In this document: positions 513-26,370 of the stretch, piece by piece
Layout of the letters: every line of letters starts with the position of its first letter
How positions within the stretch are numbered: position 1 is the first letter of the stretch
From: Polychytrium aggregatum
Lineage: Eukaryota > Chytridiomycota > Chytridiomycetes > Polychytriales
NCBI RefSeq assembly: GCF_025602895.1
Contig: NW_026516344.1
Span: forward strand, 36,538-100,537
Length of the DNA: 64,000 nucleotides
Direction: 5' to 3'
Notes under the pieces: model-generated
The model's database searches: none
The model's input: only the letters and a program-made list of their open reading frames with translations
Told to the model about the DNA's origin: nothing
Translations under genes and position numbers: made by a program

Positions 513-3500
513 CTACATCCGGGAGGCTGCGGTGCTGAGGAACTCGACGTATCGGGGCATCTCGATGATGAAGATGTCAAAGTTGTGGGCGATATCCTGC
601 GGGAAGCTGATGGGATCCTCGAAGTTGTACGAATCAATCTCGGGGTGATCCTTGCGATACTCTTGCAGCGGCACAAAGCCCTGGCGACGCAGCTGGATGC
701 GATAGGGGTCCACATAGGTCTTGGTGATGGTGTTTTCGGAGAGGTCGCTGTCGACGGTCAGGGGAGAGCCAATGTCGTCGTGGGCGGTCGTGGTCCGGTC
801 GGACGGCTTGCGGCTCATGAACCAGGCATACCGGCACGGTGGAAAGATGAATCCAGAACTGCGTGCCTGGGCCTCATCCTGCAGAAACTGCTTGATCATG
901 CGGTAGACCAGCGGGATCATGACACCTCCGGGGTCGTCGTGGCGCCGGTCGATGCGGTGGGTCAGCTGGAAGGTGCCCTCGAGCTGGCGCCAGGTGCCCG
1001 TGCAAAAGGCTCCGATGGCCCTCTCTGAGGATCGAGCGGCGGCGGAATCTTGCATCCGCTTGAGCGCTGCGGCTGCCGGGTTCTCACGGCGCGCCTTCTC
1101 GGCCCGGTACTTTTGCTTGCGCGACTTGATCTCAGGGATGAAGCCTAGCGTCAAATAGTTCTTGCGGTGGGGCTTGGTGGCCGTCAGCATCGGCAGAATG
1201 TCGTGGCTCCAGAGGGTCTCGATGCGGTGGCTGAGTTTCTCAAAGCTCGAAAAGTCGTCAAAATGCTCCATCACGCGCGACTGCCCGAGCTTCATGTACC
1301 ACATGTCGACCCACAGACACCGCATCTGGTCGATCAGGGCCTGGATCTGCCCTTGCGACATTGTCACAGGTACGAACGAGTATCCGTCCGAGTTGAAGGT
1401 GGACGAGCTCTCTGCGACCAGCGGCAGGTGCAGTGTCCGGTACTCGACTGAGTTCAGCTCGCCGACTCGGTCGTGCGGCAGCCGGCAGGTCCGGCGGCCG
1501 TTGCCGAACAGCTCGATCGGCCGCCACTTGCCCGTTCGCCAGTATCCACCGCCGCCGCAGTTGGTGCAAAACTGGTACTTTTTCTGGCAGACGGCGCAGA
1601 CCGACTATCGGAGACGCAGATCGAGACCGAGAAGAATAGAGAGCAGGAGGAGAACAGAAGGATAGCAGGAGGAGAGTAGAGGGAGATTCATCGGCCCGTG
1701 GACACGGGAGTATTAGAAGAAGGAAAGAATAGAGTTGGACCGGACACTGCTGCTGGTTTTGGGCATCCAAATACTCGCATTCATTTCAGTTGAGCGGGCT
1801 GGCTGTCCAGACTTACCTCAACGCCGTACTCGGCATGCTTTTCGTTCAGGTTGATGGCGGCAACACCTGTGCCGATGGACTGCTTGCAGACATGGCAGTC
1901 GATCAGCTGCGGTTGGTCCGGCGAGAAGGGCGCCATTCGGGCACGCTTGGTGCGCATAGCCAGGAGACCGGCGGACAGGACCACCGTACCCGAGGACGAA
2001 GCTTGCTCGTCTCCCCGGTCGCCATGCTCCGAGGCGGCACCCTCCGGCTGCGACTTTTGTGACTCGGTGGTGCAGATGAAGCACGAAAAATCACGGACGA
2101 CCGTTGGGGACAGATGCTGGATCTGCCCGTGGAATGTCAGGGTGATGCGTTGGACAGAACATGACTTGCACGCCAGCACCTCCTCGAGCTTGCCCTTCTT
2201 TTTGGAAAGGTCGTCGAGGTCCAAACCCTTGGGCGAGTCCGACACCGATGTCAAGGTCGAGCCCGAGGGATTGGGCGATGACTCTGGAGCCGAGGCCATG
2301 AGATGGTCCCAGCGCTTGCGCTTGCCAACGAGGCCGGCGGTCGGATCGAGTCCATCAGGCTGCGGCTCGTTGGCGGCATTCGGATCTGTGGCTGAGTTGA
2401 AGCTGGACGAGCCAGCAAGCATATGGCTCGATGGCGAAGCCTGGCCCAAGCCAAAGGGATTAGCGCCAAGCAGCTGGGGTACCGGTGAGCGGAGATCGGC
2501 AAAGGCGGCAGCGGTGACGGGGTGGCTCGATTTCGCGGGCTGGTCGGAGGCGAGCAGAGTTGTGCTGTGGGTGGGCTCTTGTTCAGGGTACTTGATGCCA
2601 AGGGTTTCAAAGAACTGCTGGCTGGTAAGGCTCAGTGGGAAGGACGGGCTCTGCTCGTAGCGGAACTGCGAGCTGAGAGAGAGGGAGAACGAGTCTTGGC
2701 TTGACGACCCATCGCTGTTGGCGTAAAAGTAGTACTCTGGATAGGCCGTTCTCTGGAGCCCTGCAAGTGGCCCTGCAAGTGGTCCCGCAAGCGGCCCTGC
2801 AAGTGGTCCTGCGAATCCTCGCTGGATCGTAATCATTGCGAGTGCGATTGAAATGCGTTGCGAGCGATGTTGCCAAATTGTCGAATTGCAGAGGTGCAGT
2901 TATCGAGAGATAGAAAATGCAGAGATACGTTGAGTCGTGGGCAATCGCAGGGCAGCCAAAAAGTCGTTCGTAAGAAATCAAAAGCAAAACAGCGAGACAG
3001 TGCGACTCGACATCAGGGCAGCTCGCAGCGGACTCGGTACATACCGCTGGATCCGAATTTGGCACGAGGACGGACGGCGGTGCATCGGAAGGAGCCCACA
3101 ACTGCGTTGGGGCCGCCTGGGTCGACAGCAGCACGGGGGCCGGATCGAGCCCCGGCAGTGGGCCAGACACAGGGAATTGCGACGACAGCCGATCCGAGAG
3201 CAGCGATGGTGCCAGCGACGAGGGAGGCGGCGGCGGCGGCGGCGGCTGGATGACGAAAGGGTGGTGCGTCGGGGCCGGCAGCGGCTTGGAAGCCGAAAAC
3301 GGCGGTCTCGGGAGGAAGGTCGGCGGGGCCGAGTAGAGATCGGACTGGGCCGGGAGGTTGAGGCCAGGGGCTCGCCCTGGCAAGGACGGCCACGATCCAG
3401 ACGGAGACGGAAGGGCCGGTTGGAACGGGGTCGACGACGAGAGCCTCGATGGGTCCCGCCGAGGCAGTGGCGACATGGGCTCCCGTTGCGGTATCGGGAG

Positions 3501-3767
3501 CGACGAGAAGCCTTGGCTCGGTATGCGCTGAAAGCCGGACTGGAACTCGGGCTGGAATTCGGATTGATATTCATGTTGAAAGTCCGGTTGGTACTCAGGC
3601 GGGATCAGGGGTCGTTGTTGATGCGGATATGGCAGTGCTGACGACGATGCTGCCGACGGCGATGAAGACGACGGCGGACCGGCCGAGGATCGGGGCTGCC
3701 AGGAGGCCGACGGGTTGCTGGCCGGATAGTAATGCGATTGCAGAGGAGGTGCGTTTGGATTGTTCAT
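513..3767 (-). CDS. Array gene A: Cys-rich paralog family protein (939 aa), function unknown
   Basis: Three exons: 3767-3045, 2821-1817 and 1604-513, joined in phase 0 through GTATGT and GTAAGT donors. Residues 1-455 are Pro/Ser/Gln-rich and probably disordered, including a GPLA repeat at the start of exon 2. Cysteine pairs follow: C459/C462 with C488/C491, C550/C553 (DCHVCKQSIGTG), and C579/C582 with C589/C592 leading into CGGGGYWRTGKWRP and RRTCRLPHDRVG (C616, H620). The C-terminal domain has GQSRVMEHF, YLTLGFIPEIKSRKQKYRAEK, FCTGTWRQLEGTFQLTHR, DDPGG, YVDPYRIQLRRQGF and FDIFIIEMPRYVEFL. The repeated CxxC pairs suggest zinc binding; that is inference. It is the last gene in transcription direction of a four-gene same-strand array. 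I do not recognise a known enzyme. The start is the first Met of a long open exon. Confidence 0.8.
2758..2815 (-). repeat. 12-bp tandem repeat coding for (GPLA)n
   Basis: About five copies of a 12-bp unit (CCTGCAAGTGGC-like on the plus strand), with point variants, lie at the beginning of exon 2 of array gene A and are translated as Gly-Pro-Leu-Ala units. The whole number of codons per unit keeps the frame when copy number changes. Confidence 0.8.
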
Positions 3768-5211
3768 CGAGAAATGTGGCTGCAGCGAGCTAAGAGGTCA
3801 AGTGGAAGGAGGTCAGGGACTGAGACAGGGCAGAAGTGGAAAAGGATCGAGGACACCAAGAGCGACGGCAAAATGAGCCGGAAGAGTTGCGAGATAGAAT
3901 AGGAGAGATACAAGGCAATTTGAAGGAATGGCGAGGGCACGCTGCAGGAATGGCGAGGCCAAGCGCAGAGAGAGAAGGCGAGCGATGCAGGCCGGGACAG
4001 CAAGGCGGGCAAACGGGTCCAAGGAGAGACCACAGAGCCGGACCAGCGGATCCAGCGAGGTTGTCAGCAGTGGATCCGCAGACGCAATGGGCGATCGGGA
4101 AGGACGGAGGCAATTTGGGTGGCCGAGAATGGTCGCGGAGGGCGAGTCGTTGATGAGGGCAGCGAGCCGGCACCGACCGAGACAAGCAGAACAAACGCTG
4201 GGTTAGATGCGAGTCCAGCAGAGGTGGCAGATAAGCAAGAGTATAACGACGAGCAGGAACGAGAGTGGGAATGGGGACCGGGACTGGAGCGGGAATGGAG
4301 TGGGAAATGAAGCGGGAAACAGAGCGCAACCGGGATGGGCCGTTTCGAACAACAAGCGAGTGCCGACTTGGAGCGGTTGTCCTGGTGGTCCTGGTGGTTG
4401 TCTGGTGGCCGACCAGTCCAACACAGCAGCGAAGAGCGAGACGGGCCCGGAGGCACATTTGCATGCTTGATGCTTGCATGCAAGCATTCTTGCACACCCA
4501 GCGCAGGCACATCCGGGGCTCGTCCCAAGGCACATCCGGCACAGCCATATCCACAGACACCTCCTGCCGAATGATTTGCACAACACCGACATACCAGACG
4601 AGCGAGACGGCAGGACGGCAATTAGGCCACTGCCATCAAAACCAGAGTATGAAGTGGAAAGGGCAGCAGGACCGAGGATGTCCAGCGAGCAGATGAAGCG
4701 ATAGACAGCAGCGCCGACCAGGCGCCTGGGTCCGGTGGCGGTGGGGCTGGTGGGTTTTGGCAAGTGGTACTCCCAGCAGAGGCCTCGTGCCGGCGAGGTT
4801 GAGGGCAGACTGGCCGGGATGCGGGAGCAGAGACGCAAGAGCAGGAGTGATGATGAGCAGGGGTGGGGAAGCGCAGGGCTGGCCGCTGGAACCGGACAGG
4901 AAGTGGTCGGTGGTGCTGGTGCTGCTGGTGGTGCTGGTGGTGCTGGTGGTGGACCAGGAGGAGGAGGAGGCCCGGCACACGGCGCGAGCGGTTGAATCTG
5001 CAAAGGCCCGCGAAGGAACAACCGGGCGGCAGCACTGCCCAGTCCTTGCTGCGGGTGTACCTGCCAAAGGCCGGGCTGGAGAGCGCTCTTGTCGGGCGGG
5101 CGCTTGTTGGGGGAGCGACTCCCACGAACGGCGGGTGGATGGAATGCCGTTCTTGTGCGGGCGAGTGCGCTCTGCTGCGCGGCGAGCTTGTGTCGGTTGA
5201 GTTTTTATTGT

Positions 5212-5290
5212 TGATGAGTTGGCGGTGGTGTTGATGAGTTGGCAGTAGTGTTGTTGAATTGGTGGTGGTGGTGTTGAATCGGCGGTGGTG
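5212..5290. repeat. Imperfect GGTGGTGTTGA minisatellite
   Basis: Repeats of TTGATGAGTTGGCGGTGG and shorter variants, in the spacer upstream of gene A. It produces spurious open frames on both strands. Confidence 0.65.
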
Positions 5291-5482
5291 TAATCCGCAG
5301 ATTGCTGCTGTAACATACATGTCGCTGCAATCGATTGAATGGCACTGGCGTTGGTCTTGGGACTTGGTCGCCCACGTCCAAGCGCCCCCTCTTCCCCATC
5401 CCGCCACGGCCGCGATGCCAAAACGTGCGCGGACACTGCCACGGGTGCTGAGGCTGCGGGCCGTTGCGCTGGCGACTCGGCC

Positions 5483-5562
5483 ATCTCCAAGCATCGCCGA
5501 GCATCGCCGAGCATCGTCGCTCATCGTCGCCCATCGCCCAACATCGCCGAGCATCATCCAGT
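5483..5562. repeat. CATCGCCGAG-type 10-bp repeat
   Basis: Around seven degenerate copies of a roughly 10-bp CATCGCCGAG/CATCGTCGCC unit in the spacer upstream of gene A. Confidence 0.65.
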
Positions 5563-6919
5563 TTCCATCCGGCTTCCATCCAGCATCTACCGCCGGCCTT
5601 GGCTCGAGTGGCCCTATATGCGCCAACAATCAATCTCGTGCTGCGACAAGGTCGCAAGCCCATGGGCGAGGACATCACCGGCACATCGTCTTCTCACCAC
5701 TCCCGCATCGGTGCTTGGGGGCAGCCCTTCGAATGGGCCAGCAAAGCCGACGCGCCTGGCTGCACGCAAGGAGCGCCGGCCTTTGCCCCTCGCAAGAACC
5801 AAGCGGGTCTGGGGCAGCCACGATTCCTGGCCGGGGGGAGAAGGGATGCACAAGGGGCCCCTGTTGGGTTGGGGCTGTCCTTGGGCCGATCCCGCAGGCA
5901 GGTTGCTTCCTGGTCGACCAGGACCAAAGCGGCTCCAAGAGGTGGCTCCGGGCTGTCGGGCTGCTCATGGGGGAGGGAGGAGAAGCGAAAGCAGCACGGG
6001 CGATCGAGGCGATCCAGCCCGGGAACCACTGTGGGCTCAGCTCTGTCAACCCGGCCGATCCAGTGTGCTCGGCGTTGCCACAGCGCAAGCGACGAGCGCA
6101 AATTTGCTGGCCGGGACCAGCTGTGCGTGAAAACCATGTGCCTTTGGACCCACCCACCTTGACACTCGGCCGCGACTTCTATCGAGATCTGCCTCGTCGC
6201 AGCGCTGTCCCGCCCCTTCCCTGGCATAGCGAGCGCGGCCTGCCGAGCATGTCCAGAGAGTGGGCGCCACCCCGGCATCGTTCCAAGCAGCATCGGCAGC
6301 ATCGGTCCGCTGTGAGTCGGCTTGGGACGCCCGATGTGTCCATTCGAGTGCGCGCCGTCTTGGCCAATGGGGCGAGTCTCGCCATCGTCCTGGACTCAGC
6401 TGCTGCGATCCCCGCACTCTATGAGGACTCGTATTCCTTTCAGCTCTTGTCAAGGTTATATGCCGGATGCTGACGACAAGCCAAGAGCAAAGTAAAGATG
6501 GGGGCATCTCGTTTCGTTTCATTTCATTTTTTCATTTTTTTCATTTTCCATTGTCTGGATAGACTGTACATGGGAGGCACCTCCCTCATCTTCCCTCCGT
6601 ACACCTGTATTCACACTCATCATCTAATCGCGACATTCACCGATCCGGATCTGGGTTCCTTATTAGATACATCAAAGGCCGTCTTGCACGAGGTCTCGGT
6701 AAGAGATCCAGACAACTATCCAAAAAAAAAAGAAGGCGGGGTAAGAGCACGACGGGGGGGGTGTCGTTCCTTCGACCCAAGATCGGGGGAGGGAAGGAAG
6801 CAGTTGCCAAGGTCGAAACGGTGGTGCTGGAGAGCGAGACCAGGATCAGGAGGGCTGCGATGGCACCGTCTGGTAAGACGTCCTCTCGCACTCTCCTTCT
6901 CCTGCTCCGTCCTGGCCGG

Positions 6920-9900
6920 TCAACTCTTGGCAATGTTTCGCCTCAGGTATTCAAAGTATTTCGAGATCTCGATCACAAAGATATCATACTGCTGGACTTC
7001 AAGGCGCGAGTCGGCGCCGTGGTCGTCGCAGAACCAGTACTGGTCGACTTCGGGGTGCTGCTTGCGGTACTCTTGCAGCTGCATAAAGCCCTGGCGGCAC
7101 AGCTGGATGCGGTACGGATCGACATAGGTTTTGGAGCCGGTGGCCCGGGCGTCGCCTCCAGAGTCGGATCGTCCCGCGTCCAGAGTATGGGCCGCATCGC
7201 CAGTATCGGCCGCCGAGCCCGTAGTGCTGCCTCCCGGAAGCATCTCGGCCTCGGACTTGCGGCTGGCAAACCAGACATAGCGGCAGGCCGGGAACGCAAA
7301 TCCAACCTCGCGTGCCTGGGCCTCATCCTGCAGAAACTGCTTGATCATGCGGTAGATCAGCGGGATCATGATGCCTCCCGGGTCGTCGTGGCGCCGGTCG
7401 ATGCGGTGGGTCAGCTGGAAGGTGCCCTCGAGCTGGCGCCAGGTGCCCGTGCAAAAGGCCCCGATGGTCTTCTCGGGAGGCTTTGCCGGCAGAGGATGGC
7501 CCCGCTTGCTGGAGGGTCCGCCGTCAGACTCGCGCAGGGCTTTCTCGGCACGGTAGCGCTGCTTTCTGTTCTTGTACTTGGAGATCAGCCCCAGAGTCAG
7601 GAAGGACTTGCGGTTGATCTGATGGGTGGTCAGCAGCAGCACAATCTCGTTGCTCCAGATGCGTTCGAGCTGCTGCGAGATCTTGCGGAAGGTCGAGTAC
7701 TCGTCAAAGTGCTCCATGACCTTGGGCTGGGCCACTTTGGCCATCATCAGCTCCAGCCAAATGTCCTTGAGCTTCTTGAGGAGCAGGTTCAGCTCGGGAT
7801 GCGAGAGCTTGGCCAGGTCCCAGTTGAGCCATTGGGTCGCATTGATGGGCTCGTCTCGCCGGGCGGCCACCGACGCAACCAACGGCAGGCTGCAGGTGGT
7901 GTATTCGATCCACTGGACTGGTCCGACTCGGTCATGCGAGAGGCAGCAAGTCCGGCGATGGCTGGCAAACAGCTCCTTGGGGCGCCATTTGCCCGTTCGC
8001 CAGTATCCGCCGCCACCGCAGTTGGTGCAGAATTGGTATTTCGCGTCGCAATGACTGCAAACCACCTGTGGCAATGGCCAAGTGTTGAATGTATCGCGGA
8101 GAGGAGCCAGACGGCATCGAGCAGATCAAACAGCACTGATTAGACAAGGTACAGCACCCAAGTGTCGCAACCATCACAATCATCACAACCATCACAGCCA
8201 TCACAATCATCACAACCATTACAGCCATCACAACCAGCACAATCATCACAACCATCACAACCATCACAACCAGCACAACCGTCGCCACCGCATTACCTCG
8301 ATGCCGAATCCATTGCTGTGCGAGTGGATCCGCATATTGAGCGCCGCCTTGGCAAACCCGATCGGCTGTTTGCACACATTGCATTTCAACAGCTCGAACC
8401 CCGGCGGCAGACCCGCGCCGGCTCGGGCGGAATGCGTTTCGGCCGGCGACTCGAGCTTGATGTGCTCTCGCCGAGGTGTCTCTGTTGGTATATTGCTCTC
8501 GGCCGCCATCGCCACCGCTGCTGCCGCTGCTGTTGCTGCTGCTGCGACCGAGCCTGGGATCGGGACACCTAGCGAGAGCACAAGGGTTGGGTCGGGAGGA
8601 CCTCGGGCCATCGCCGCCTCCAGTCGTGCGATGCGCTGTTCTTCGCATGCCTGGCACACAAACTGGACAATGAACGGCCGTGGCACGTTGATCGTCTTGC
8701 GAGAGCCCCCCAGGAATGTGATGCAGGCCTTGGTATCTTGGCAGGAGAGACAGACCAGCGACTCGACCGGATGCGTGGCAGCGGTGTCGGGCTCCGACGC
8801 AACCAGCGCTCCTGGCCCTGGCGAGAGCGCGTCCGGCGAGAGCCCCTGCGGCGGTGCAGACGCACAAGTAAGTTATCGTGGGAACGCACTCGGCCAGCCG
8901 ATTCCATGCTGCCGACGACTTGCAAACGCCAGACGCCATCCACTGGACAGTCTCCTGCTCGAAGCCGACCACACTTCACAGACTGCACGGACTGCACTCG
9001 GACACGTTCTCGTGAGAGATGACCGACTCCATCCCCGCCCCTCAGGTTTAAATCACAGCCGGGCTGCATCGCCGCCTGTCTTGACCTCGCCGACTGGTAC
9101 CCTCCGCCAGTCGGCATGAACCACATGCCGAAATATCCTGTGCCTGCCGTCCTACACTACCCCAATCGCATGCCCGATACTGATGACAGTGCTCTGCTGT
9201 GACTCCTGCCCCCGTCATGCCTTTCTGCCCGCATCGTTCCCCGCTCCGACCACACAGACCCATCCCCACACACACTCGCACTTACTTGGTCCTCGTAACC
9301 GACAGGGCTGGGGTGATCGGCGACGGGCTGGCCCAGCGACGAGCGCTCAGCGACCGAATACCACGGCCACGGCGCGACCGGAGAGCCGGTTAGCGCATCG
9401 AGCGACTGGGCAGGCGCGGGCGGGAGCTGCTGATGGACGAGGTGAGCCTGAGCCGCCGTCGGGCCTGGCGATCCGTGGCGAGTGGACGGCAGCAGCGGCG
9501 GCGGCCATGGCGTCCCATGGAGCGGCCTCGTATCTGACCCCGAGGGCAACACCAACTCGACGGCTTTGTTGTCCACTGGCAGGGGCATGTGATGGCTTGG
9601 ACCGTGGGACCCTTGTGGCGGGGTCTGCTCGGCAAGGTGGTCACGGCGGTGGTCCTGATTGACGGCGGTGGTTCCCATGTCCCGCGGTGAGGGCACGAGA
9701 GTCGGCCGCCGGTTTGCCGTTTCCGAGGCCACGGTTGAGAAGGGGAGGGGAGGCAGCAATAAGCAGATCCCAGACAACAACGACACAAAAAAAGGAAAGA
9801 GAAACAAGGGTTGGTTAGGCGGATGGACAGCGGTGAACGGCACAGACCCTCAAATGCCAAGATGGCGAGTGCCAGAACAGCGAAGCGCTGGCACGACCCC

Positions 9901-11695
9901 CCTCCCTACAAAGCAAACAAGCCCCTTCGCCAGGACGAAAGGACGAAAGGACAAATCCAACGAGCGATACAGCCGGGTGCTGGTTGTCGCCATGAGTAAC
10001 TCTTACCCAGTATGACGGTGTGTCTGGACGGACAGACTCCTGCCACCGCAGACCCGGGGAGGCCAGACCCAGAGGCACCAGCGGAAGCAGCTGCGGCTGG
10101 GGCTGCAGTGTGTGGAGATGCTGGTGCTGGTGCTGGTGCTGGTGCGGCCGAGGCAGTGCCGGATAATGATACTGAGACTGTGTTTGGGATTGGGGGTGAG
10201 GCTCCAGTTGCGGTTGCGGTTGCGGTTGCGGTTGTGATCGCGATTGCGGTTGCGGTTGCAGTTGGAAGGGTAACTGCGGCTGCAGCTGCGGCTGAGGTTG
10301 TGGCTGAGGTTGTGGCAGTAAAACGGAAGAGGATTGCAGTGGCGGAAGCAACAGCGAGTACTGCTGAAGAGGTGGGACCGGCGAATTGGACGGAACAGAC
10401 CCTGATTCGCGGCTGACGAGAGCTTCGCTGCCCGGACCGAGACTGAGCGATCGATAGTTTTGCCCAATCGACATGGTCTCGGGATAGCCGTAGCCCGGGC
10501 TGCTGGCAAAGTTGCGGTCGAGGGCAGGGTGCGGATGGTCCTGGGAACGAAATGAGGCGGTCGATGGCTTGTCTAGTCCTGGGTCGTGGTCTGAGCCTGG
10601 CTTGGATGCATACGCTGGGCCGGCGACCCACACAGACCCAGAGCCGAGGGTCGAGGAAGGATCCAGCGACTCTGATTCGTAGCTGCCCCTGACGGAACCA
10701 GCCAGTGCCGGCTGCAGATACGACGGTGGCGAATACGGCCACAGCGAAGAATTCCAGTTCAAAAGTTGGGCCTGAGAAAGCTCGAGCGGGCCGCCGGGCG
10801 GGGGCTGAACGAGTGCCTGGGCGGGATGGGCATGGTCCGGGTACTGAATGGATCCCAAATCGAGGGCGGGCTGGTACTGAGCCGACATCCTGCTCCGATC
10901 CCTCGAATAGCCAAGGCGATCGACTTGGCCGCGGAGAAGGAACGACGGGCTCGCCAGGGTGTCCAGCGACGAATCGGGCGTCACAAAGGTATTGACGGGC
11001 GCCGGACCGGCAAGGACGGAATTGCTGGAGACTGTGGCGTCGGGGGTGTATGCACCGTGCGAATACTCGGGTCCAAAGAGCGGATGTCGGTCCATGGGAG
11101 GAGCAGTTGGATGGATGCGATGCAGCGACGGCGATGCGTTTGTGGGGTGGTGTGCAGGCGACAGGCCGGTCGGAGCAAACGGGACAGCATCCCGAGTCGC
11201 AGCCAGCGGATAGTGCTGCTGGAACAGCGCAGCACGGCTGCCGTCCTCCCGAGGCAGCGGGTAGTGGGTCTGGCTGCTTACAGATGAATTCCCCCAGTGA
11301 GAGCTGGATGCATCGGCAGGGTCCTCTTCTGGGTGGAATGGAGATGGGTGCTCCATTGTCGGAGCCGATGCGACGGTGGGAGACGAGACGGACGCAACGA
11401 CTGCTGTGCTCTCTCTTGATGGAGGTGTATCCGGGACCTGCAAGCGAGGCAATACATTAGCACATGTGCCGGGAGACAAAAAGTATCCGGGCGGTAGATT
11501 GGGGAAGGGGGCGTGGACAGCCAGGTGCCAGCGATGGGGGGAGAGTGCCAGCGAACGAGCACCAACAGACAGGCGCCCGCAAATGGGTGCTGTACGATCG
11601 ACAGGCTCAGCGAGAGCCGAGATGCGCAGATTGGACGGAGACGAAGACGAGACCGAGTGCAGGCGGGGTGGGTGAATCTGCTGGGCCTGGGACAT
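6920..11695 (-). CDS. Array gene B: Cys-rich paralog family protein (about 1250 aa), function unknown
   Basis: Four exons: 11695-10007, 9654-9286, 8845-8297 and 8065-6920, all phase 0 (donors GTAAGA, GTAAGT, GTAATG). Exon 1 (563 codons) is low complexity, with HQ, PQ and LQ runs. Exon 3 has LVCLSCQ with VCQACEEQ, then LKCNVCKQPIGFAKAAL. The terminal exon opens with VVCSHCDAKYQFCTNCGGGG and GYWRTGKWRPKELF, RRTCCLSHDRVG, then the shared C-terminal domain (GTWRQLEGTFQLTHR, DDPGG, YVDPYRIQLCRQGF, YDIFVIEISKYFEYL). It is the closest relative of gene A, with a stretch of nearly identical DNA. The start is uncertain: TTGCAG just before codon VPDTPP (about 11425) could be an acceptor, in which case a short upstream exon is missing. 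The exon 2 acceptor at 9655 is supported by a long stretch without AG. Confidence 0.75.
8160..8285. repeat. CATCACAAC minisatellite inside an intron of gene B
   Basis: About 13 copies of a 9-bp CATCACAAC/CAGCACAAC unit. It lies wholly inside the intron (8066-8296) that interrupts the cysteine region of array gene B, so the SQPSQ-type open frame there is not a protein. Confidence 0.85.
10105..10330. repeat. Coding simple repeats (HQ, PQ, LQ runs) in gene B exon 1
   Basis: GCTGGT and GGTTGC hexamer runs on the plus strand correspond to His-Gln and Pro-Gln/Leu-Gln runs on the minus strand in the low-complexity N-terminus of array gene B. Confidence 0.75.
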
Positions 11696-12349: not shown

Positions 12350-12362
12350 CCAGCATCAACAT

Positions 12363-12427
<65 letters not shown>

Positions 12428-12428
12428 A
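12350..12428. repeat. CAACAG hexamer tandem repeat
   Basis: About twelve perfect or near-perfect AACAGC units, upstream of array gene B and outside any supported exon. It gives an Asn-Ser or Gln-Gln open frame that is a repeat artefact. Confidence 0.85.
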
Positions 12429-15400: not shown

Positions 15401-16711
15401 AGGCACACCGGATCAGTCCGCCTCCTCCTTCTCGTACCCGCTCCCGTGTGGCGGCCACTGGCCACACTCCACCGCCGTCGGCTTCTGATCGGCCAATGCT
15501 CAGACAAAGCTCAGACAAAGCTCTCCTCCTCCGTCCATCTCTGCGATCCACCCGCCCGCCTCCGAGCACATTGCGTGCACATCATGTCAGCTGTGCACCA
15601 CTTCCTCGTTCGTTTGTAAAGGTGGCATGTGCTGAGGCATAGGGCACTCACCCGCCCACCTTTATTTTCCTTTCCTGTCCTTTGGGTGATGAGGATCCCT
15701 CCCTTCCTCGGCTCGAGCACTGAACCAAACTACATTCTGTGTCGCCTTTCCCACAGACGTTTCATGACAGGGGGTGGCTCGATCGATGGGACCTGGCGAG
15801 GCGAGGAGGCCAGCGGTCGGGCGGTGCCGGAAGAATTGCAAAACTATGTACATGTGCGTTGCTCCTGCCGTCCAGCCCCACTGGTTGTCCACGAAACCCG
15901 CACGTCTGCTTGCACAAAGAGCCGGCTTATCCCTTGGCAAGGCCCAATTCACACGGTCCAGGGCGCTTGCGACCATGGGTCCCGCGGGAGAGGGTGCAGG
16001 CGAGGGCGAGAGACGCGGGGTGGGCTGGAGCCTGCCTCGTCTCGCTGCCGACGACATGGCCGTCTCGCCCACCCCGCTCCCAGGCCCTCTTGCAGGGCCC
16101 GGAGGGATGCCAAATGAGAAAGACTGCCATGGGTTCGTCGCTGCCGCGCTGTCGCAGGCACGCCCCGGCCCGGGCAGAGCGGCCGCCATTCCTCATCTTG
16201 ATCGTCACAGCACCCGGTCGGTCGATCGGTGCGGTGTGGTGCGGTGCGGTGCTGCACAGCAATCTGCCTTGGGTGCTTGTGCTTGCGCCGGAGGATCGTG
16301 CTTGGTCCATTGCAGGTTTTGCATATCCACGGTATGTCTCGCACGTCCATCGTATGCAGAGGCATTCTTCCAGACGAGTATAGATCGACGGATCCTGTCG
16401 AGCCATTGGCGATGTCGGCTGTCTGCTCGGGTTGCTGCTTTGGCTGTCCCATCCGACCAGTCGCGATCCCATTCAGCTGTTGGTTTTTGCCTTTGGGCCG
16501 CCGGCCATATTCCCACGCCCCTTCTTGATCAGTTTGCGGCCACTCGGTGTCCTGGCTTGTGCCGTGTCTTAATGCAGTCGTGGTCTCGACAGGTGCGACC
16601 AACTAGGCTCAGCTCAGCTCGGCCCAGCTCGGACCGGGGCCGAGTCGGCTCAGCATGCGGATGCGACGAACCGACCAACATGGGCTATGGGATCCTGTCC
16701 CTGCTCACCCG

Positions 16712-16768
16712 GCCAGCCAGTCAGTCAGTCAGCCAGTCGGTCAGTCAGTCGGCCAGTCGGTCTGCCTG
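16712..16768. repeat. CAGT/CGGC tetranucleotide repeat
   Basis: A run of CAGT, CAGC and CGGT tetramers in the B-C spacer. Confidence 0.75.
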
Positions 16769-17111
16769 TCCTCGCTCAGTAAGTCGGTCTTGACGCTGTC
16801 CTTCTTGGACGACCCAGCTGAGTTGGGTGGGCGCTGATGAGATAGATTGGGCTGAGCTCCTCCTTGGCCGTGTGCGACGCATCCACCCCTCCCGATTGGT
16901 GTTGTGCGGACGATACCCGAGGGAGGAGGGGCCCAGGTCGATCCCGGGCTGATATGGAGTGGGCCGGACTGCATTGGTTGCGCTGGTTGCTGGCCTTATC
17001 GGTGGCAGTTGGATCGCTCCGATGAGACACTGTTATCGTTGGGTGGGTTCTCATCTTGGATTCAGCCGTTCTTGCCGCCGGTGGAGAGCGAGGGAGAGGA
17101 GGGGGGGCGAG

Positions 17112-17141
17112 GAGAGAGAGAGAGAGAGAGAGAGAGAGGCG
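17112..17141. repeat. AG dinucleotide run
   Basis: About 14 AG units shortly downstream of the 3' end of array gene C (minus strand), so probably transcribed as CT in its 3' region. Confidence 0.85.
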
Positions 17142-17259
17142 CGATTGGAACTCCTCGGAATCCAACCGAGCATGTTGAGATGATGGAGTCGGGAGTTGCG
17201 AGCCGGGGAGACCTCTCAGTGCCAAGAGGGAGGAGCCGCAGACTCACCGCACCCATCCT

Positions 17260-20200
17260 TCACACCATCATCGACACAGCCGAGTCCAGATAGTCCACAA
17301 ACTTTGCAATCTCGACCACAAAGATGTCAAAGTTGTGAAGCACCTCAGGTGGATAGCTGTCGTCTTCAAAGGTATAGTCGTCGGCCTCGGGGTGTCGGAG
17401 ACGGTATTCTTGTAAGGGCAGAAACCCTTGTCGGCGAAGCTGGATCCGATACGGGTCCACAAAGGTCTTGGCCAGATTGCTTTCGTTCGCGGTGGGGGGC
17501 ATGGTGGCATGGGCCGCGGGCGCTCCCGAGGCGATGCGTTGTGGAACGGGCTTCTTGAGCGAGCTTGGGGTGGACCGAGGCAGTTCCGATGGACCTTGGC
17601 TCTGCCCGGCGTCATCGTTGTCGCTGGCGAGAGCGGCGACGGTGGTGGTGCTGGTGGTGGTGGTGGTGGTAGGTTGGGCAGTGGCTTGCGACGGCAGACC
17701 AGGCACCTCGGGCTCGCTGCATATCGGCTGCATGTCACCCGAATGCTCGGTCGCCACGCCGCTCTGTGCATCGGATTCGGTGTCGTCGCCAAAGATGGCC
17801 GAGGTCAGATCCGAAGACTTGCGGCTGACAAACCAGGCGTACTTGCACACCGGGAAGATCTTGCCCCCAGCTGCTTCGTGGCGAGCTTGCTCCTCGTCCC
17901 GCATGAACTGCTTCATCATCCGCTGCAGCAGCGGCACCATCATGCCGCCGGGATCCTCGAGTCGCTTGTCGACTCGATGGGTAAGTTGGAAGGTGCCTTC
18001 GGTCTGCCGCCAGTTGCCAGTGCAAAAGCCGCCGATGATCTTGTCGTGCGACTTGCGACCCTTGTTTGCCGCCGACAGACCGACGGCCGATGACGAGGAC
18101 GAGGACGAGGACGGGCCCAGGAGAAGCGACCCGGCCGATGACGACGACGCCAGCGACGACGATGACGACGATGCCATTGCCGACAGAGTCTTCTCGCGCT
18201 GGGCCTTCTCGGCGCGGTACCGCTGCTTGCGCGAGATCAGCTCCGGAATGAAGGCGATCGTCAGATAGCCCTTTTGGTTGTCCTTGCGCTGGGTCAGCAG
18301 CGGCAGGATGTCGCGGATCCACATGGCATCCAGTCGCTCTGTGATCTTCTCGAACGTGGAGAAGGACTCAAAGTGCTCCATCACCCGCGACTGCCCGAGC
18401 CGAAGCAGCCCCACGTCCGTCCAGATGCCATGCATTTGCTCGAGAAGCAACTGTCGCTGCCACTGCATAAAGTCTTGGTCCGACGACAGGCCCGTGATGG
18501 TCTGGCTCTGGACATTGGCAGTGAGTGGCAGCGCCCAGGTGACGTACTCGATCTCGTTGACTTCGCCGATGCGGTCGTGCGGAAGTCGGCAGGTTCGGCG
18601 GGCGTACCCAAACAGCTCGGCCGGTCGCCACTTGCCCGTGCGCCAGTGGCCGCCGCCACCGCAGTTGGAGCAGAACTTGTACTTTGTGGTGCACGGATCG
18701 CACACGAGCTGCCAAAACGGAGAGAGGGTAAGTGCAGGACGGCGGTGTGAGAGGCATGGAGAAAGCAGTACGCGCTGCCGGGGTGGCGATCGACATGGGC
18801 GGCGATGCAGACAGCAGCTTATCGCCCACCTCGATGCCGACGGCGTTCTTCTTGGATCGCAGGCTTTCTTCCTCGATGGCAACCCGCCCAAACCCAAAGG
18901 CTTTCTTGCACACGTCGCAGGTAAAGTACTGGTCTTGGTCATGTTCGTATTTACGCTTCCGCTTCGAGGCGCCGATCAGCCGCGAGGCGAGCGGCTGCCC
19001 AGACCTGTCTGGGTCGTCGAGCCCATGGTCTTGATTCAGATCCTGCGGGACTGCTTGGCTGGGCGCTGTTCCGTTGCTTGCTTGATGGCACGACACACAG
19101 TCGAACTGAGAGATGATGCTGTGCGAAACGAAGGCTCCGGACGCCTTGCCGAACAAGAACGCCTGGCCTTTCTTTTGGTTGCATCCGCGGCAAAGCAAGG
19201 CTTCCTCGAACTTGTTCTTGCGGGGCGCCGACTCGACACCCCCGGGCGGGTCGCTCTTTGTGGACGCCGAACCTGGCACTTCGGCACCGAGGTAAGCCGC
19301 ATCGGGCGGAGAGGTTCTCGCGGCATGTGCCAGAGTCGGCCGGACATCGGACTGAGGATCGGAGACTGTGGACGGGTGGGGTGCTGGTGGTCGGGCAGAG
19401 TCGTGGGCGAGGCTCTTGGTCGACCAAGATGGCGGCACTTGCGATATGGCCTGGTTCCGGAGCTGGCTTTGAGAGTGAGGATCCGGGTAGACGTCGGTCC
19501 AGTCGGAGCGAGTACCCGAATACGATGCAGATGTTTGCGGAGGCTGCAGTGCCGAGAAGATGCCGGGGCCGGCCGCTCTCTGAGAAATGAACCAACAGAT
19601 GAATGAACGAATGAACGAATGGATGAATGGATGAATGGATGAATGGACGAACGGATGAATGGATGAACGGGCAGAGGTGTATGTGCAAGACCAAGAAGCA
19701 ACCTCGATCGCAATTCCCCCGCCTGGCAGCCTTCTCGGAATCAACTCGGAGCCCAAGAAACACTCCTGCTGTCGACACCGACTTACATGTTGCGACGGAG
19801 CCTCGAATGCGTCCCGAGGATCGGCCAGATTAATCGGATGCAGCGGCTCTCGTCCCGAGCGAGGTGCAGGAGCGGCATACTGTGCCAGAGTGCTCCAGGA
19901 TGCCGGAGGAGACGAGTGCAAGCCATCGCCAGCAGCCGGACCCGAGGGCCGGGCAGCGGCCAGGGTATAAGACGACAGGCCCGGTGGCAGGGCTGACGAG
20001 GAAGGGCGCAGGTCCGAGGAGCCATGGTGGTACGTTTGCTGATACGGAGGCTGGTGCGGCGGCGGATATGGCTCCAGCGAGTACTTTTGCGGGTGCTGGT
20101 GGAGCGATGGCGGACGGCCAGAGCCGGATGTTATCGGGTCGGCCAGTGGCGGAGGCAGCCGCCTCAGCGTCGAGGATTCGTTTGCAGGCAACGGACGATG

Positions 20201-20554
20201 GGCAAAGGCATCGATCGAGTACGCCGAGAGCGACGAGGCCGGCGCTCGGTCCCGGGCATAGCTGGCCGGGCGTTCGGAGATCCGTGGAGGTGGCAGAAGA
20301 GGAGGAAGGGACGAATCGCCGGGTCGGCCAGGGCCGAAAAAGTCTCGAGCACGGAGAGGCAGCAGCGCGGACGGAGGCGAGTCGCCTGGATAGAAGGCCG
20401 GCGGATGCTGGTCGTCTCGCCGGAAGGGCAGCTGGCCAAAGGACAGAGGATTACTCGGCAGCGGGGCGGCCGGTCGGCGATGCAGATCGTTGGGTACCTC
20501 GGCGGGATCGAGCGGGCCGTATGGGTTTTGATAAGGGTGGTTTGGGATAGACAT
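17260..20554 (-). CDS. Array gene C: Cys-rich paralog family protein (988 aa), function unknown
   Basis: Three exons: 20554-19787, 19579-18830 and 18708-17260, all phase 0 (GTAAGT, then GTGGGC, donors). The start chosen is MSIPNHPYQNP at 20554, which resembles the start of gene A; the frame is open to 20644. Residues 1-256 are Pro/Ser-rich. Exon 2 carries LLCRGCNQKKG with DCVSCHQ and FTCDVCKKAFGFGRVA. The terminal exon carries LVCDPCTTKYKFCSNCGGGG, HWRTGKWRPAELF, RRTCRLPHDRIG, GQSRVMEHFESFSTFEK, AFIPELISRKQRYRAEKAQR, GNWRQTEGTFQLTHRVDKR, DPGGMMVPL, YVDPYRIQLRRQGFLPLQEY and NFDIFVVEIAKFVDYL. A polyserine insertion (about 18100-18180) and a Thr/Ser-rich loop separate conserved blocks of the C-terminal domain, which suggests flexible linkers there. 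Function unknown. Confidence 0.8.
19597..19680. repeat. GAATGGAT octamer/tetramer repeat in gene C intron 1
   Basis: ATGAATGAACGAATGG-type repeats fill much of the intron between exons 1 and 2 of array gene C (19580-19786). On the minus strand they read as an Ile-His-Pro-Phe run that is not coding. Confidence 0.8.
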
Positions 20555-22698
20555 GGCGGCGGGGGCGGCGGGAAAAAAGAAAGGATATACAGCGGCGAGT
20601 TGGATCTTGGATGGCGGGATGAGTGTCCAAGGATAGGGGGTCAACGCACAATCAGCAGCGAGACCACCAGGGGTGGATTGTGGGGAGGGACGCCAGCTGG
20701 GCGAGAAGAACGATTGCTGGCTGTGGAGAGGGGCACTGATGGAATCGCAGATGAGCGGGGGAGGTCGCAGGACTGGTTCTCCAGCAAAGGTGTGTACTCA
20801 GCCCAAAGAAGGAGAGGGGCGACAGACGGGAAAGAGTGGGTGCGAACGGAGGTAAAGAAGCGGATCGGCTGCAACAAGCAGACTAACGGACGGAGCAGGA
20901 CAGCAGACAGAAGCGGGGGGGGGGAAATCGACTGCAGACGGTGCCGTGGGGCCGAATCGTCAGTGGGGATGGGCAATATACAGCCGCAGAATCGGAGCAG
21001 AGGCGAATGGGGACTGGTGTGGGAGACGGGGAAGGGCAGGACAGGGGAGCGTTGCAGGTCAGAAAGTCACGACTGAATGCCCAATCCAGGAGACCGAGTG
21101 TTCCAGAACAGAAGAGCACAGAGGAGATGCTGTTGGTGGGGCTTTATACCGCCGTCGCGGGGGGGGGCACTGGAGTATGAGGGTGGTAGGAGCGACCAGT
21201 GGCCGGCTGGAATGCTGAGGATCGGCGATCGCGAGGCGGGTGAGCCAGGCGAGCGACATGGGGGGAATGGGGCAGAGCGGCGGAAGGGAATGGGATGGGG
21301 ACGGGGGTGACGAGCCGAGATGGGCCCGGAGAGGCCGTGGTCGGTGCAGCAAGGGATCGGGCGGCGGACGGCAGTTGAACGGCAGTTGAACGACAGTTGA
21401 ACGACAGTTGGACAGAGGGGGGGGGGATCGACCGTGAGAGGGTGGGGAACAAGGCTGGCAACGGGGAAGGAAGTTGGTCGAAAGTGGCGGCTGGGGTGGG
21501 GTGCGGCGCCGGAGATGGGCATTGGTGGGAGGGAGATGTTACATGTTGCAGCCGGTCGTTGTCGAGCTGCGGGTGGTTGTTAACTTGCGGTCTCGCAGCA
21601 TGCAGTTGTTAAATTGCAGGTAGGACGCTGCTGGGGTGGTCGTTGGTCGTTGGTCGTTGGTCGTTGGTCGTTGGTCGTTGGCAACATGTGCTTGTCTTCT
21701 GCCGCATGGACCAAATTGCCGGGGGGAGACCACGCCGAAGGATTTGCATCTGAGCCAGCGCCGTCAACAAACACTGGACGGGGGAACGGCGACGGGGATG
21801 CGGTGGACGAGGGCCACGCAGGTACCAAAGGCACATCGTGGGGGGGGGGAGGGAGCGAGATGCTGTTATACGGCGGGACAGACCGGGTGGCTCCTTCCCC
21901 ACTTTACCCCGCTGGGTCCGCTGGGTCCGCAATCGAAGCGGCATCGTTGGATATACATTCGTTTGGGAGTAATCACATCGCCTTTGAGAGTCATTGCATC
22001 GGATGCACCTCGATGGAGGCAAACAAGGCCAAATGCTTCCTCCGGGGAAATGCACCTCCGACCGCTGATGTCGGCCTGCCCGTGGTGCAGCCGGCCTTTG
22101 GTGGTTCAGAGCACAAGGACTCCATGGCGACCATCCTTTGGCTGTCCTGTGTGCACCGGCATGCCGCCCGGCCCCCCCCCCAACATCCCCGTCGAGAGGA
22201 TGAGGGGTGGAATTGCCTTGTGGTTGTGCATCCACCATGGGCCTTGCCGATGCCACCGACGGATCACCTCAACCGAACGGCCGAGCGATTCAGCGGCATT
22301 GCAGCGTTCACGAAATGGTACGTGTGGCATGCAGCGTTCACGAAATGATACGCCATGATTATCCGCACTTGTGTTTTCCTCTGTGGTTGCCAGTTGCGGG
22401 ATTGGTCGTGTGTATTCGGTGAACCAGAACGAAGAGCCACCAGTCCTCGACCGGGTGTCGCATTTGCTTCGCAACTGCTCACATATACCGACAAAGACAG
22501 TAACAAAAAAAAGGACCTATTTGGGAGACGGAAGGACCCGAGAAATAGTCGGAGCGATTTTAGGGACTAGGCCAACAGTCGTAACAATTTTTAGGGATCG
22601 AGAGGTGGTCGGAATACCGATGGGCGGAAATAAAGGAAAGAAGTAGAAAAAAAAGAGGAGGGAGGGGAGGGGAGAGTGTCAAGCAACCAGGCTCGAAA
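20555..22698. other. Gene-poor spacer between array genes C and D
   Basis: No supported gene. It contains GTTGAACGGCA repeats (21370-21415), a TTGGTCG heptamer array (21633-21685) and a direct repeat of GCAGCGTTCACGAAATG at 22303 and 22339. The right end (22500-22698) is A/G-rich and likely the 3' flank of gene D. Confidence 0.4.
21633..21685. repeat. TTGGTCG 7-bp tandem repeat
   Basis: About seven head-to-tail copies of a heptamer in the spacer between array genes C and D. Confidence 0.85.
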
Positions 22699-22946
22699 TT
22701 AGGATAACGGGGCAGCGGTTTCTAGGAATTCAAGAAAGCGAGTCAACTCAGTCACAAAAATGTCAAAGCTCAGCGGATTCTGGCCGGCATAGGACCCGAG
22801 ATCGGCCGTAAACTTGTACTGGTCCACCTCGGGATGCTCGAGCCGATATTCGTGCAGCGGCAGAAAGCCCTGGCGTCGAAGCTGGATGCGGTACGAGTCG
22901 ACATAAGACTTGAGCGACTCGGTTTCTTTGGCGAGCACCGACGACG

Positions 22947-22978
<32 letters not shown>

Positions 22979-25900
22979 TGTTGCTGTTGCTGGATTTGCA
23001 GTTGGTGCTGCTTCTCCTGGCAAGGCTCCCAGCTGGCGGTGCTTCCGGTCTCGGAGCAGGACGGGTGCTCGCACGACTTGCGGGCCATGAACCAGACGTA
23101 GCGGCACTTTGGGAGGCCGTGTCCGGCACGCTCCATCTCGGCTTCGTCTTGCAGGAACCGTCGGAGCATCCGGTGGATCAGCGGCAGCATCATGCCTCCG
23201 GGGTCGTCGTGGCGCCGGTCGATCCGGTGGAAGAGCACAAAGGTGCCCTCGAGCTTCTTCCAGTAGCCCAGGCAGAACCCGCCGACGATGGTCTCGGACC
23301 GCTTGCAGGCATCGGGGCTTCCAGAGCCGTCGATGGTGCCTTCGACCTCGCCATCGCCGCCCTCGCCAGCGATTCCTGCTGCCAGCGAGGCCGTCGCCGC
23401 CCCCCGGGTGATGCCTGAGCTGACCGTCGTAAGGCCGTAGTTTTCTCGCTTGGCCTTCTCCAGACGGTACTTTTTCTTGCGCGAGATGATCTCGGGGATG
23501 TAGCCGAGCGTCAGGTAGCCCATGCGGTCGGCGCTGGAATCACACAGGAGCGGATCAATGTCGGCTCGCCAGAGATGCTCGATCTTGGTCTTGGTCTTGT
23601 CAAAGGTCGACAGCCGCTCGAAATGCTCCATCACACGGGACTGAGCCAGCCGGACGAGACCGAGCTCGATCCAGAGCTGGTTCATCTGGTTATAGATCTC
23701 ATGGTGGGCGCCGGCGGTGGTGCCCTGGCCGCTGGCCATGGCCAGGGGCAGCTGGTAGGTGCTAAAGTCGACGTGATAGCTGTTGCCCATGCGGTAGTGC
23801 GACAGTGCGCAGGTCTTTCGGCCGTTCTGGAAGAGCTCGGCTGGCCGCCACTTGCCGGTGCGCCATTGACCACCGCCGCCGCAGTTGGTGCAGAACTGGT
23901 ACTTTGACTGGCACGGGGAGCAGATGAGCTGCAGCCAGGGATGGGGGGAGGGCGGGCAGGTTAGAGATGGGATCGCAGAACGATGGCAGCGCTGACGATG
24001 TGTCTCGGATCGAGACGAAAGGAGTGCCCGGTTGCTCCATGGCGCCGTTACCGAAACCAGACGATTCCCCAACGAACCAACAGCACACCTCTGCTTTGGC
24101 TCGACGATCCCGTTCAGCCGCACAAGCACCCAGCACCCAGCACACATGCATCCGCCCGCACAACCCACCTCGACGCCAAACTTGTTGTTGCGGTGGTAGA
24201 TATCAAAGGAGAGCCGGCCCGAGCCAAACGAGCGCTTGCAGATGCTGCAGTCCAAGACCTGGTCGCGATTCGGGTAAAACTTTTTGCGACGGGAGGTCCT
24301 GCGATGGCTCTTGACGGGGGTATGGATCATCGGCAGGGACAGGGACAGGGACGACGCCGACGACGTCATTGTCGATGCCAATGCCAATGCCGATGTCGAT
24401 GTCGATGTCGATGCCGATGCCGATGCCGATGCCGCCTGGGTATCGTACAGCAGCTCGGGGTCCATCGGGGGCACACGGCAGTTCGAGCAGTGGAAGCGGC
24501 TGATTGCCGGCTGCGGGAATGACTGGGCGTCGCAGTGGAGCAGAAAGAGTGCCTGGTAGCTGCAGCTGCCGCATCCGAGCACCTCCTCGATCTGCTTGTT
24601 TTTCTTGCCGGGGGTCTTGGGTCCGCGCGGCGCCGCGGCGGCAATGGTTGTGGCTCCTGTGACTGCTGTGGCATCGTCGGGCGACGACCGGGTCGAGAGA
24701 GGAACTGTCGGGCTCTTGACCATGGCATCGATCGCGGATGAGGACGAAGACATGGAGCCACGCTTGGCGCTCTGCACCAGGACGGTGTCGCCGTACCAGT
24801 CGACGAGCCGAGGCAGTTTGTTGGAGCCCTGGATGGACGGCTCGGGCCCGCGCTTGTGCAGACCCGTCTTGAGGGCCTCACTCCCAAGAGGATGGCCGAA
24901 GGAAATGAAGCTGGGAGGATCCAGACTGGACATGCACGGCGAATGGTACTTTTGCTGGACTTGACCGACGACGGCGTGCGGGGAGCCGGGATGGGGTGTC
25001 TCGACTGGTGAAGGAAGCGGCGGTGTTGCAGGACGGAAGCCGTACAGATGCCGATGGGAGGAGCCCGAGGGCGGCGAGTCCAGCGGCGTCGCAAAGGAGC
25101 CGCGGGGATAGCCAGTGGAATAGCCGGTGGAATAGCCGGTGGGGACAGGGAGCGTGCGGGCCAGGTCCGAGGGCGAAGGCGAAGGCGAGGACGATGCCGA
25201 CCAAGAGAGTCTGTAGGGATGGTGCTCGGGCTGGGACGAGTATCTTGGTCCATGTGGATCTGTTGGGGAGCCACCCCCATAGACAGGATCCCACGGATGG
25301 CGAGTGGGCCGAGGATGGGCGGAATGGGGCGACGGCTGAAGGGCGCAGGATGAAATCGCGAGTGTGGCATGTCGGTGCGGGGGGGGGAGTGTATGTCCCG
25401 ATGGGATGCAAGAGCGGTTTGTGAGATGCAATGCAAGAGCGGGATGCACAAGACATGCATGCAGGCAAGCGTGCGGATACAGGTCGAGCTAACGACACCA
25501 CAGCCGAGCAAACACCACAGCCGAGCAGGCGAACAAACACAAGCGAGTAACCGGGCGATCGCAGCGGCAAGGACACCCAAAGGACCAATCGTCGCCGCGA
25601 CTGCAGCCTCGGAAGCGATTCCCACCCTGGTCGCTCCTGGCCCACCCCCCGCCGCTTCCCATGGCTGCCCCTCCCGAACCAGGACGGGCCAGCCCCGCTC
25701 TGGTTCGTCCTTCGCGGCGACAACCCACCCAACACACACGCAGGCATCATATGGCACCGCCCCGTGGTCTTACCGAAATGGCCGGCAGCGTCGGCGCCGA
25801 GTCGTGGCCGGGGTGTGGATGGTGGGGCAGTCCTCGGGCGAGGTCGCCGCCGTCGTTTCTGCCGGCAGAAACGGGGCTATGACTATGGCCATGGCCATAG

Positions 25901-26370
25901 CCATCCGATCGGAACACCGGGGCACCAAAGAGAGGCTGGCTTCGATCGACAGGCGACGCCAGCTCGCTGTCGCGGAAAGTGGCCAGGTCCGGGTAGTTGT
26001 GCGAGAGCCGGGTTTCGGGCTGGATGGCCGGCGGGCGCATGGACTCGGGCGACTTGAAGTCGCCGTGCCCGGGATAATACTTGTGGTCGCCAGAGACAGG
26101 ATACTCGGCGGGATATCCCGCCGGCCATTTGGGAATCACAGCGGACTCGGGCGAGGGCAGCGCCGAGTTCTGGTGATGGTATGCTGGCCGATAGGAGGCC
26201 GCAGCCGCAGGAGGATCCCGGGAGACAGATACAGACTTGAACGAGAGAGGCGGCGGACGCAGGTGAGACGATTGGCGATACTCATCAGCAGACCGGACCG
26301 CAGGTGAGAGCGAGCCCAGGGATAGCCGGAGGCGAGCGGGCAGATCCTCTGAGGCGTGGGAGGGAGGCAT
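22699..26370 (-). CDS. Array gene D: Cys-rich paralog family protein (997 aa), function unknown
   Basis: Three exons: 26370-25774, 25335-24169 and 23928-22699, all phase 0 (GTAAGA and GTGGGT donors). The N-terminal 200 residues are Pro/Ser/Tyr-rich. Exon 2 has repeated TGYS units, then LGCGSCSYQALFLLHCD with FHCSNCRVP, an Ala-Ser-Thr run, and LDCSICKRSFGSGRLSF. The terminal exon opens LICSPCQSKYQFCTNCGGGG, QWRTGKWRPAELF, RKTCALSHYRMG, and continues AQSRVMEHFERLSTF, YIPEIISRKKKYRLEKAKRE, GYWKKLEGTFVLFHRIDRR, DDPGGMMLPLIHRML, YVDSYRIQLRRQGFLPLHEY and SFDIFVTELTRFLEFL. A run of about 15 glutamines splits the conserved C-terminal domain. It is the first gene of the same-strand array in transcription direction. 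The start Met at 26370 is the first in an open exon and could be extended. Confidence 0.8.
22942..22998. repeat. CTG trinucleotide repeat coding for polyglutamine
   Basis: An uninterrupted CTG run followed by TTG/CTG units on the plus strand, read as CAG/CAA (Gln) in the terminal exon of array gene D. The pure CAG core makes length variation likely. Confidence 0.9.
24365..24440. repeat. GATGTC/GATGCC hexamer repeat coding an Ala-Ser-Thr run
   Basis: About twelve 6-bp units in exon 2 of array gene D, translated as alternating Ala-Ser and Thr-Ser in a linker between two cysteine modules. Confidence 0.8.

Follow-up and report, generated by a model that had tools for sequence, protein, structure and literature searches.

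Acetyltransferases of the GNAT superfamily are built on the topology b1-a1-a2-b2-b3-b4-a3-b5-a4-b6-b7. They bind the pyrophosphate of coenzyme A (CoA) in the b4-a3 loop, carry a 'Y..lGF' motif in the a4-b6 segment, and many of them have a catalytic Tyr. The MYST histone acetyltransferases carry a single C2HC finger and a loop of the QRxGYG type, and the Eco1/ESCO cohesin acetyltransferases have one C2H2 finger. We analyzed a stretch of 64,000 nucleotides from the chytrid Polychytrium aggregatum (assembly GCF_025602895.1, contig NW_026516344.1, positions 36,538 to 100,537 of the forward strand), called the window below, in which four paralogs, A, B, C and D, lie head-to-tail, all on the minus strand. 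Their large proteins are related and combine three probable zinc-binding modules (M1, M2 and M3) with a domain resembling a highly divergent acetyltransferase.

When all six frames of the 64 kb were scanned, C-x2-C-x-GGG-x-W matched four times (motif first bases 1568, 8029, 18672 and 23892), and CxNCGGGGxWRTGKWRP was read at all four matches. The last exons of B, C and D are 54, 56 and 50% identical to that of copy A in end-to-end alignment, and the spliced cores, from M1 to the stop (487, 538, 609 and 550 residues in A, B, C and D), are 38-50% identical in pairs. When the four spliced cores were compared with the window by tblastn (E<=0.01), only these four loci matched and no fifth copy was found, with cross-matches between loci down to E 2.6e-123. 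An original prediction, made from the sequence of this stretch, had claimed an array of four same-strand paralogs; motif scan, alignment and tblastn bear this out and place it on the minus strand.

The four genes share an intron within the core. In every copy the Glu codon of 'G[VI]E' is the last of exon 2, and a CxxC follows two residues into the last exon; the intron is in phase 0 and at the same codon in all four, with GT donors at 1816 (A), 8296 (B), 18829 (C) and 24168 (D) and AG acceptors directly before 1604, 8065, 18708 and 23928, which are the C-terminal exon starts of the original prediction. An intron at one place in four of four copies supports their descent from one gene. In paralog D this intron (23929-24168, minus strand) is 240 nt long, a multiple of three, and has no in-frame stop, the frame being continuous through it; its retention would insert 80 residues within M2. 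The core intron of B contains a GGTTGTGAT-type simple repeat (8150-8290, minus strand).

For the six core pairs (470-525 codons), the Nei-Gojobori method (NG86) gave a nonsynonymous divergence (dN) of 0.50-0.66 and a synonymous divergence (dS) of 0.99-1.44, imprecise in that values near or above 1 are near saturation; dN/dS was 0.37-0.55. Codon position 2 was the least different and position 3 the most in all six pairs. This range of dN/dS, together with the high dS, shows that the copies are old and constrained, under purifying selection. Between the loci, blastn (E<=1e-5) gave 17 matches, all within the last exons, and no match in the flanking and intergenic DNA (five stretches, 10 comparisons). 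The copies seem to stem from a single ancestral gene that was duplicated locally, long ago, and the pattern is best explained if the cores were kept while the N-termini diverged. The family had been described as fast-evolving, which suits the N-terminal halves but not the cores, where dN/dS is low and codon position 2 the least different.

The three cysteine modules and the FCxNCGGGGxWRTGKWRP block had also been predicted to be common to the copies, and in the core alignment 12 putative ligands (11 Cys and 1 His) are indeed invariant in all four. M1 consists of C-x2-C, 24-28 residues ending F-x, and C-x2-C. M2 consists of C-x-[VI]-C, 25-28 residues, and C-x2-C, and its halves flank the conserved intron. 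M3, which is Gly-rich and basic, reads F-C-x-N-C-GGGG-x-WRTGKWRP-x-ELF-x3-R-x-T-C-x-L-x-H; it was poorly modelled, the predicted local distance difference test score (pLDDT) being below 50 over residues 1-51 of the copy A last-exon model. The paired CxxC/CxxC or CxxC/CxLxH putative ligands that we looked for in a zinc protein are invariant among these homologs. Read from this pattern, the 12 Cys/His residues would pair into three zinc sites, two CCCC and one CCCH, and zinc binding by M1-M3 is predicted. Between M1 and M2 there are basic stretches, RTKRAR in A, SKRKRK in C and RRTSRRKK in D, which look like nuclear localisation signals.

To model the C-terminal domain, AlphaFold was run with the four-row alignment, using the last exon of copy A as the first query and copy B without M3 as the second. 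Mean pLDDT was 56.6 in both cases, with a predicted TM-score (pTM) of 0.55 for A and 0.59 for B. The low-confidence copy A model contains b1 (54-60), a1 (84-107), a2 (119-141), b2 (147-157), b3 (195-206), b4 (211-217), a3 (229-249), b5 (259-265), a4 (300-307) and b7 (342-348), an order that follows GNAT, b6 not being formed as a strand. Its ten-residue blocks with a3, b5, a4 and b7 average pLDDT 52-85, most of them 71-85. Between b2 and b3 there is an additional basic helix, around RKQKYRAEKARRE.

The models were compared with the PDB by Foldseek (E<=10), and the best 50 of 242 matches for A and the best 50 of 227 for B were examined. For copy A, all 50 are acyltransferases or proteins that we take to be GNAT-like under titles that do not say so (BjaI, PatZ, Rv0802c, OrfE, 2qml, Rtt109 and CBP); OrfE was named an acetyltransferase in a separate look-up. 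They are led by 4e2a (E 3.1e-3), 3owc has a probability of 0.99, and the probability is at least 0.72 in 42 of the 50; many are GCN5, and PA2578, Naa80 and SpeG are also among them. For copy B, the first 13 matches and 33 of the best 50 are GNAT. The two models were built on the same four sequences and are therefore not fully independent. According to the alignment, the b4-a3 loop is HR[IV]D[RK]R[HL][DE]DPGGxM in all four copies, with an invariant Gly pair, and an invariant 'IQL[RC]RQGF' stands at the position matching the GNAT a4-b6 segment. The C-terminal domain may thus have a GNAT-like acyltransferase fold, a conclusion that we draw with low confidence.

Several results weigh against this assignment and against the nuclear role proposed below. 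The other four models reached pLDDT of only 37.9-43.4 (A) and 44.1-50.6 (B). Structure prediction with fold comparison, a check proposed in the original prediction, did yield GNAT-like matches, but at low model confidence and with none at E<=0.001 among the PDB matches listed for A and B or the viral library matches listed. TM-scores by query were 0.13-0.27 for the copy A PDB matches listed; with copy B the best E was 0.03, probabilities were at most 0.66, and 17 of the best 50 matches were to proteins of other kinds, MutS and Ulp1 among them. The canonical CoA loop [RQ]-x-x-G-x-[GA] is absent from all four copies, an invariant DPGG standing there, and L or Q occupies the presumed place of the usual catalytic Tyr. 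Pfam, searched with the four last exons up to E 10, gave no family above chance and no acetyltransferase row. When the family profile was compared by hhalign with 46 E. coli proteins (43 decoys and 3 GNATs), SpeG ranked 16th, PanZ 28th and RimI 41st, and a six-row GNAT profile matched it with a probability of 0.08; the query alignment has only four rows, so that the power of such a comparison is low. In the linker of copy B the basic stretch is weaker than in A, C and D and is not clear. Given the weak E-values, weak models, odd loop and negative profile test, we call the domain 'GNAT-like' and do not file it as a proven GNAT member. The original prediction could not assign the domain combination to a characterised family; sequence methods do fail on the C-terminal domain, although fold comparison now points, at low confidence, to GNAT.

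Its claim that a multi-domain Cys-rich protein expanded locally around a conserved core, without close similarity to any named family, agrees with the Pfam, NCBIfam and PDB sequence searches. The Pfam scan of seven open frames, in which the first two modules of copies A, C and D were covered, gave nothing above cut-off. NCBIfam gave no family above chance, and a first search of PDB sequences with profiles of the four copies gave 0 matches. Weak Pfam rows for the last exons (COG2_C, DUF7416, FAM199X, TFIIA, MINDY_DUB, VPS13_N and Med3), each in one of the four members, were rejected, as were those for the seven open frames (Ig_PDGFR_d4, VPS13_N, COG2_C, DUF7416, Glyco_hydro_52 and Trypan_PARP), all below cut-offs. 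An NCBIfam beta-lactamase row (one member only, E 0.023) was set aside, and two rows of a second PDB sequence profile search (E 0.95 and 1.7) were taken as chance.

Relatives were searched for in collections of prokaryotes, viruses, plasmids and phages. Peptide patterns marked 90 and 39 stretches in viral contigs and 63 and 65 in prokaryote genomes, of which tblastn confirmed 0; in plasmids and phages, tblastn of copy B only (E up to 1) gave no match, and a degenerate CGGGG-block pattern had 0 matches in viral contigs. A degenerate DPGG-loop pattern picked out 16 loci, none of them a relative (best tblastn E of the four cores 0.36). The strings WRTGKWRP and TGKWRP did not occur in the literature searched, no title or abstract beginning among those listed describes the family, and 'acetyltransferase' occurs 0 times in the main text of PMC8778642. 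Similar CGGGG-RTGKWRP-like blocks may be present in uncharacterised fungal proteins, which would then be the direct family.

We tentatively favor, at just short of an even chance, a nuclear zinc-module protein whose divergent GNAT-like domain would be an acetyltransferase or an acyl-CoA-sensing regulator; its nuclear location, acyl-CoA binding, catalysis and target are what we infer from the features above. The long, Pro/Ser-rich N-terminus would probably be disordered, and the zinc modules would hold the protein on a nuclear target, be it DNA, RNA or a chromatin protein. The GNAT-like domain would bind acetyl-CoA or another acyl-CoA and either acetylate the held target or read the acyl-CoA level, acetylation of the target being the likeliest activity. 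The four copies would come from an old local duplication of one eukaryotic gene family. A more specific version is rather doubtful, namely that these are an unnamed family of acyltransferases of eukaryotes, probably of fungi, directed to chromatin or RNA, whose highly derived GNAT domain, with DPGG for the CoA loop, is delivered by the three zinc modules; the family would have grown locally to four diverged, constrained copies.

It is rather unlikely, too, that the proteins are pseudo-enzymes, that is, zinc-module transcription or chromatin regulators in which the GNAT-like domain lacks catalysis and is a scaffold for a ligand or partner. The absence of both the canonical CoA loop and the usual Tyr in four of four copies and the lack of an acetyltransferase row in Pfam would be expected of such a protein, and the Pro/Ser-rich N-termini and the KR-rich stretches of three copies fit a regulator. 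However, the replacement loop is itself strongly conserved among the four old duplicates, which points to a retained function there, and some real acetyltransferases are without the canonical loop. Less probable again, and the main technical risk, is that the C-terminal domain has some other mixed alpha/beta fold and that the GNAT match is an artefact of the shallow four-row alignment. The low pLDDT, the weak E-values, the weaker second model and the lack of sequence-profile support could all be so explained, and no coherent picture came from the viral fold library (3 named acyl- or acetyltransferases among the best 50 of 110 matches); yet all 50 matches listed for A and the first 13 for B converge on one superfamily from two query paralogs. 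That the family is an expanded set of recognition proteins, extracellular or facing a host and shaped by diversifying selection, a reading close to one role suggested originally, fits the local expansion and the divergent N-terminal halves with no blastn match outside the last exons, but is very improbable, since dN/dS is below 0.6 in six of six core pairs (constraint), the cysteines are of the CxxC zinc type and accompanied by KR-rich stretches, and no secretion signal is visible by eye in the candidate starts.

Table 1: Features of the four paralogs in the window.
Feature	Position	Strand	Evidence
Paralog A last exon: M3 1473-1604, GNAT-like domain about 516-1448, stop 513-515	513..1604	-	alignment, AlphaFold model, PDB fold search
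Paralog A exon 2 core part: M1 2066-2188, then a basic linker and the first M2 half (to 1817); donor GTAAGT	1817..2188	-	
Paralog A candidate first exon: rich in Pro/Ser, start ATG 3767, ambiguous splice site	3045..3767	-	
Paralog B last exon: M3 7934-8065, then GNAT-like domain	6920..8065	-	alignment, model, fold search
Paralog B exon 2 core part: M1 8633-8767, then a linker and the first M2 half; donor GTAATG	8297..8767	-	
Paralog B candidate N-terminal open frame: Pro/Gln-rich, candidate exon limits	9815..11695	-	
Paralog C last exon: M3 18577-18708, GNAT-like domain containing two long inserts rich in Ser/Thr	17260..18708	-	
Paralog C open frame: candidate ATG 20554 to M1 19082-19210, KRKR stretch, first half of M2, donor GTGGGC	18830..20554	-	
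Paralog D last exon: M3 23797-23928, GNAT-like domain containing a poly-Gln insert	22699..23928	-	
Paralog D exon 2 core part: M1 24472-24591, then the RRTSRRKK linker and the first M2 half; donor GTGGGT	24169..24591	-	
Paralog D candidate first exon: start ATG 26370, ambiguous splice site	25774..26370	-	

The N-terminal stretches examined are of low complexity, with 53-67% P, S, Q, T, A, G and N vs 40-45% in the cores; the frame of B has Pro-Gln runs (9818-11695, minus strand), and the open frame of C may have an internal intron. When the N-termini of A, B and D were scanned for splice sites, several acceptors scored alike in A and D, and candidate introns of B exceeded 1.1 kb. As the N-terminal exons are of low complexity and their splice solutions ambiguous, the total lengths given by the original prediction (939, about 1250, 988 and 997 codons) are only plausible.

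The recognised neighbouring genes in the window are ordinary. A UDP-glucose:glycoprotein glucosyltransferase gene of many exons occupies 33046-40536 (plus strand, outer limits by eye), with Pfam matches of 8.5e-39 and 1.3e-52 on the pieces 37788-38507 and 39678-39977. Exon pieces at 29781-32294 (minus) resemble by eye a CARM1-type protein arginine methyltransferase, the scanned 58-aa piece having no Pfam match. Those at 43168-51670 (plus) suggest by eye an MIT-domain calpain; the open reading frame 44330-45241 gave a weak MIT row (E 0.0024, below cut-off), and two further pieces had no match. A homocysteine S-methyltransferase (54595-55586, minus; Pfam 6.7e-20 on 54942-55586) is followed by a frame resembling by eye 2-dehydropantoate 2-reductase (56054-57387, plus; no Pfam match for the scanned piece 56461-57387), an EF-hand protein (58217-58696, minus; Pfam 4.5e-25) and a class-V aminotransferase (59125-60708, minus; Pfam 3.8e-16 on 59125-60252). 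Short simple repeats include a His-Ile run (30523-30711, minus) and an INTT run (27898-28023, plus).

The array is real and of moderate interest, as a combination of domains that has no name and for which there is now a structural lead, and not as a proven new system. What is new here is the lead to a GNAT-like fold, from low-confidence AlphaFold models of the C-terminal domain. If it is true, a testable idea of biochemical function, acyl-CoA chemistry directed at a nuclear target, becomes available for a conserved family without a Pfam name, and the DPGG loop would represent a novel construction of the GNAT CoA site. The array would also offer a natural set of diverged copies for studying the specialisation of regulators.

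Among known systems, the MYST histone acetyltransferases resemble the predicted architecture of the paralogs in that a zinc module precedes a GNAT-like catalytic fold or lies inside it, but neither the C2HC finger nor the QRxGYG-type loop was seen in the paralogs, and the four last exons gave no Pfam row for a MYST (MOZ/SAS) profile up to E 10. The Eco1/ESCO cohesin acetyltransferases, with an N-terminal zinc finger, a GNAT domain and a basic stretch, also resemble this predicted architecture; the cysteine pattern differs, the predicted sites of the paralogs being two CCCC and one CCCH, not C2H2, and no Eco1-type row was found by Pfam in the last exons and seven open frames. The low-confidence models of the paralogs' C-terminal domain resemble the GNAT superfamily as a whole in the order of strands and helices predicted for copy A, b6 apart, and in the top fold matches, none of which is at E<=0.001. 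The paralogs differ from it in having no sequence-level match in Pfam or the hhalign comparison, in the DPGG that replaces the canonical CoA loop, in the predicted basic helix inserted between b2 and b3 and in the fusion to three zinc modules.

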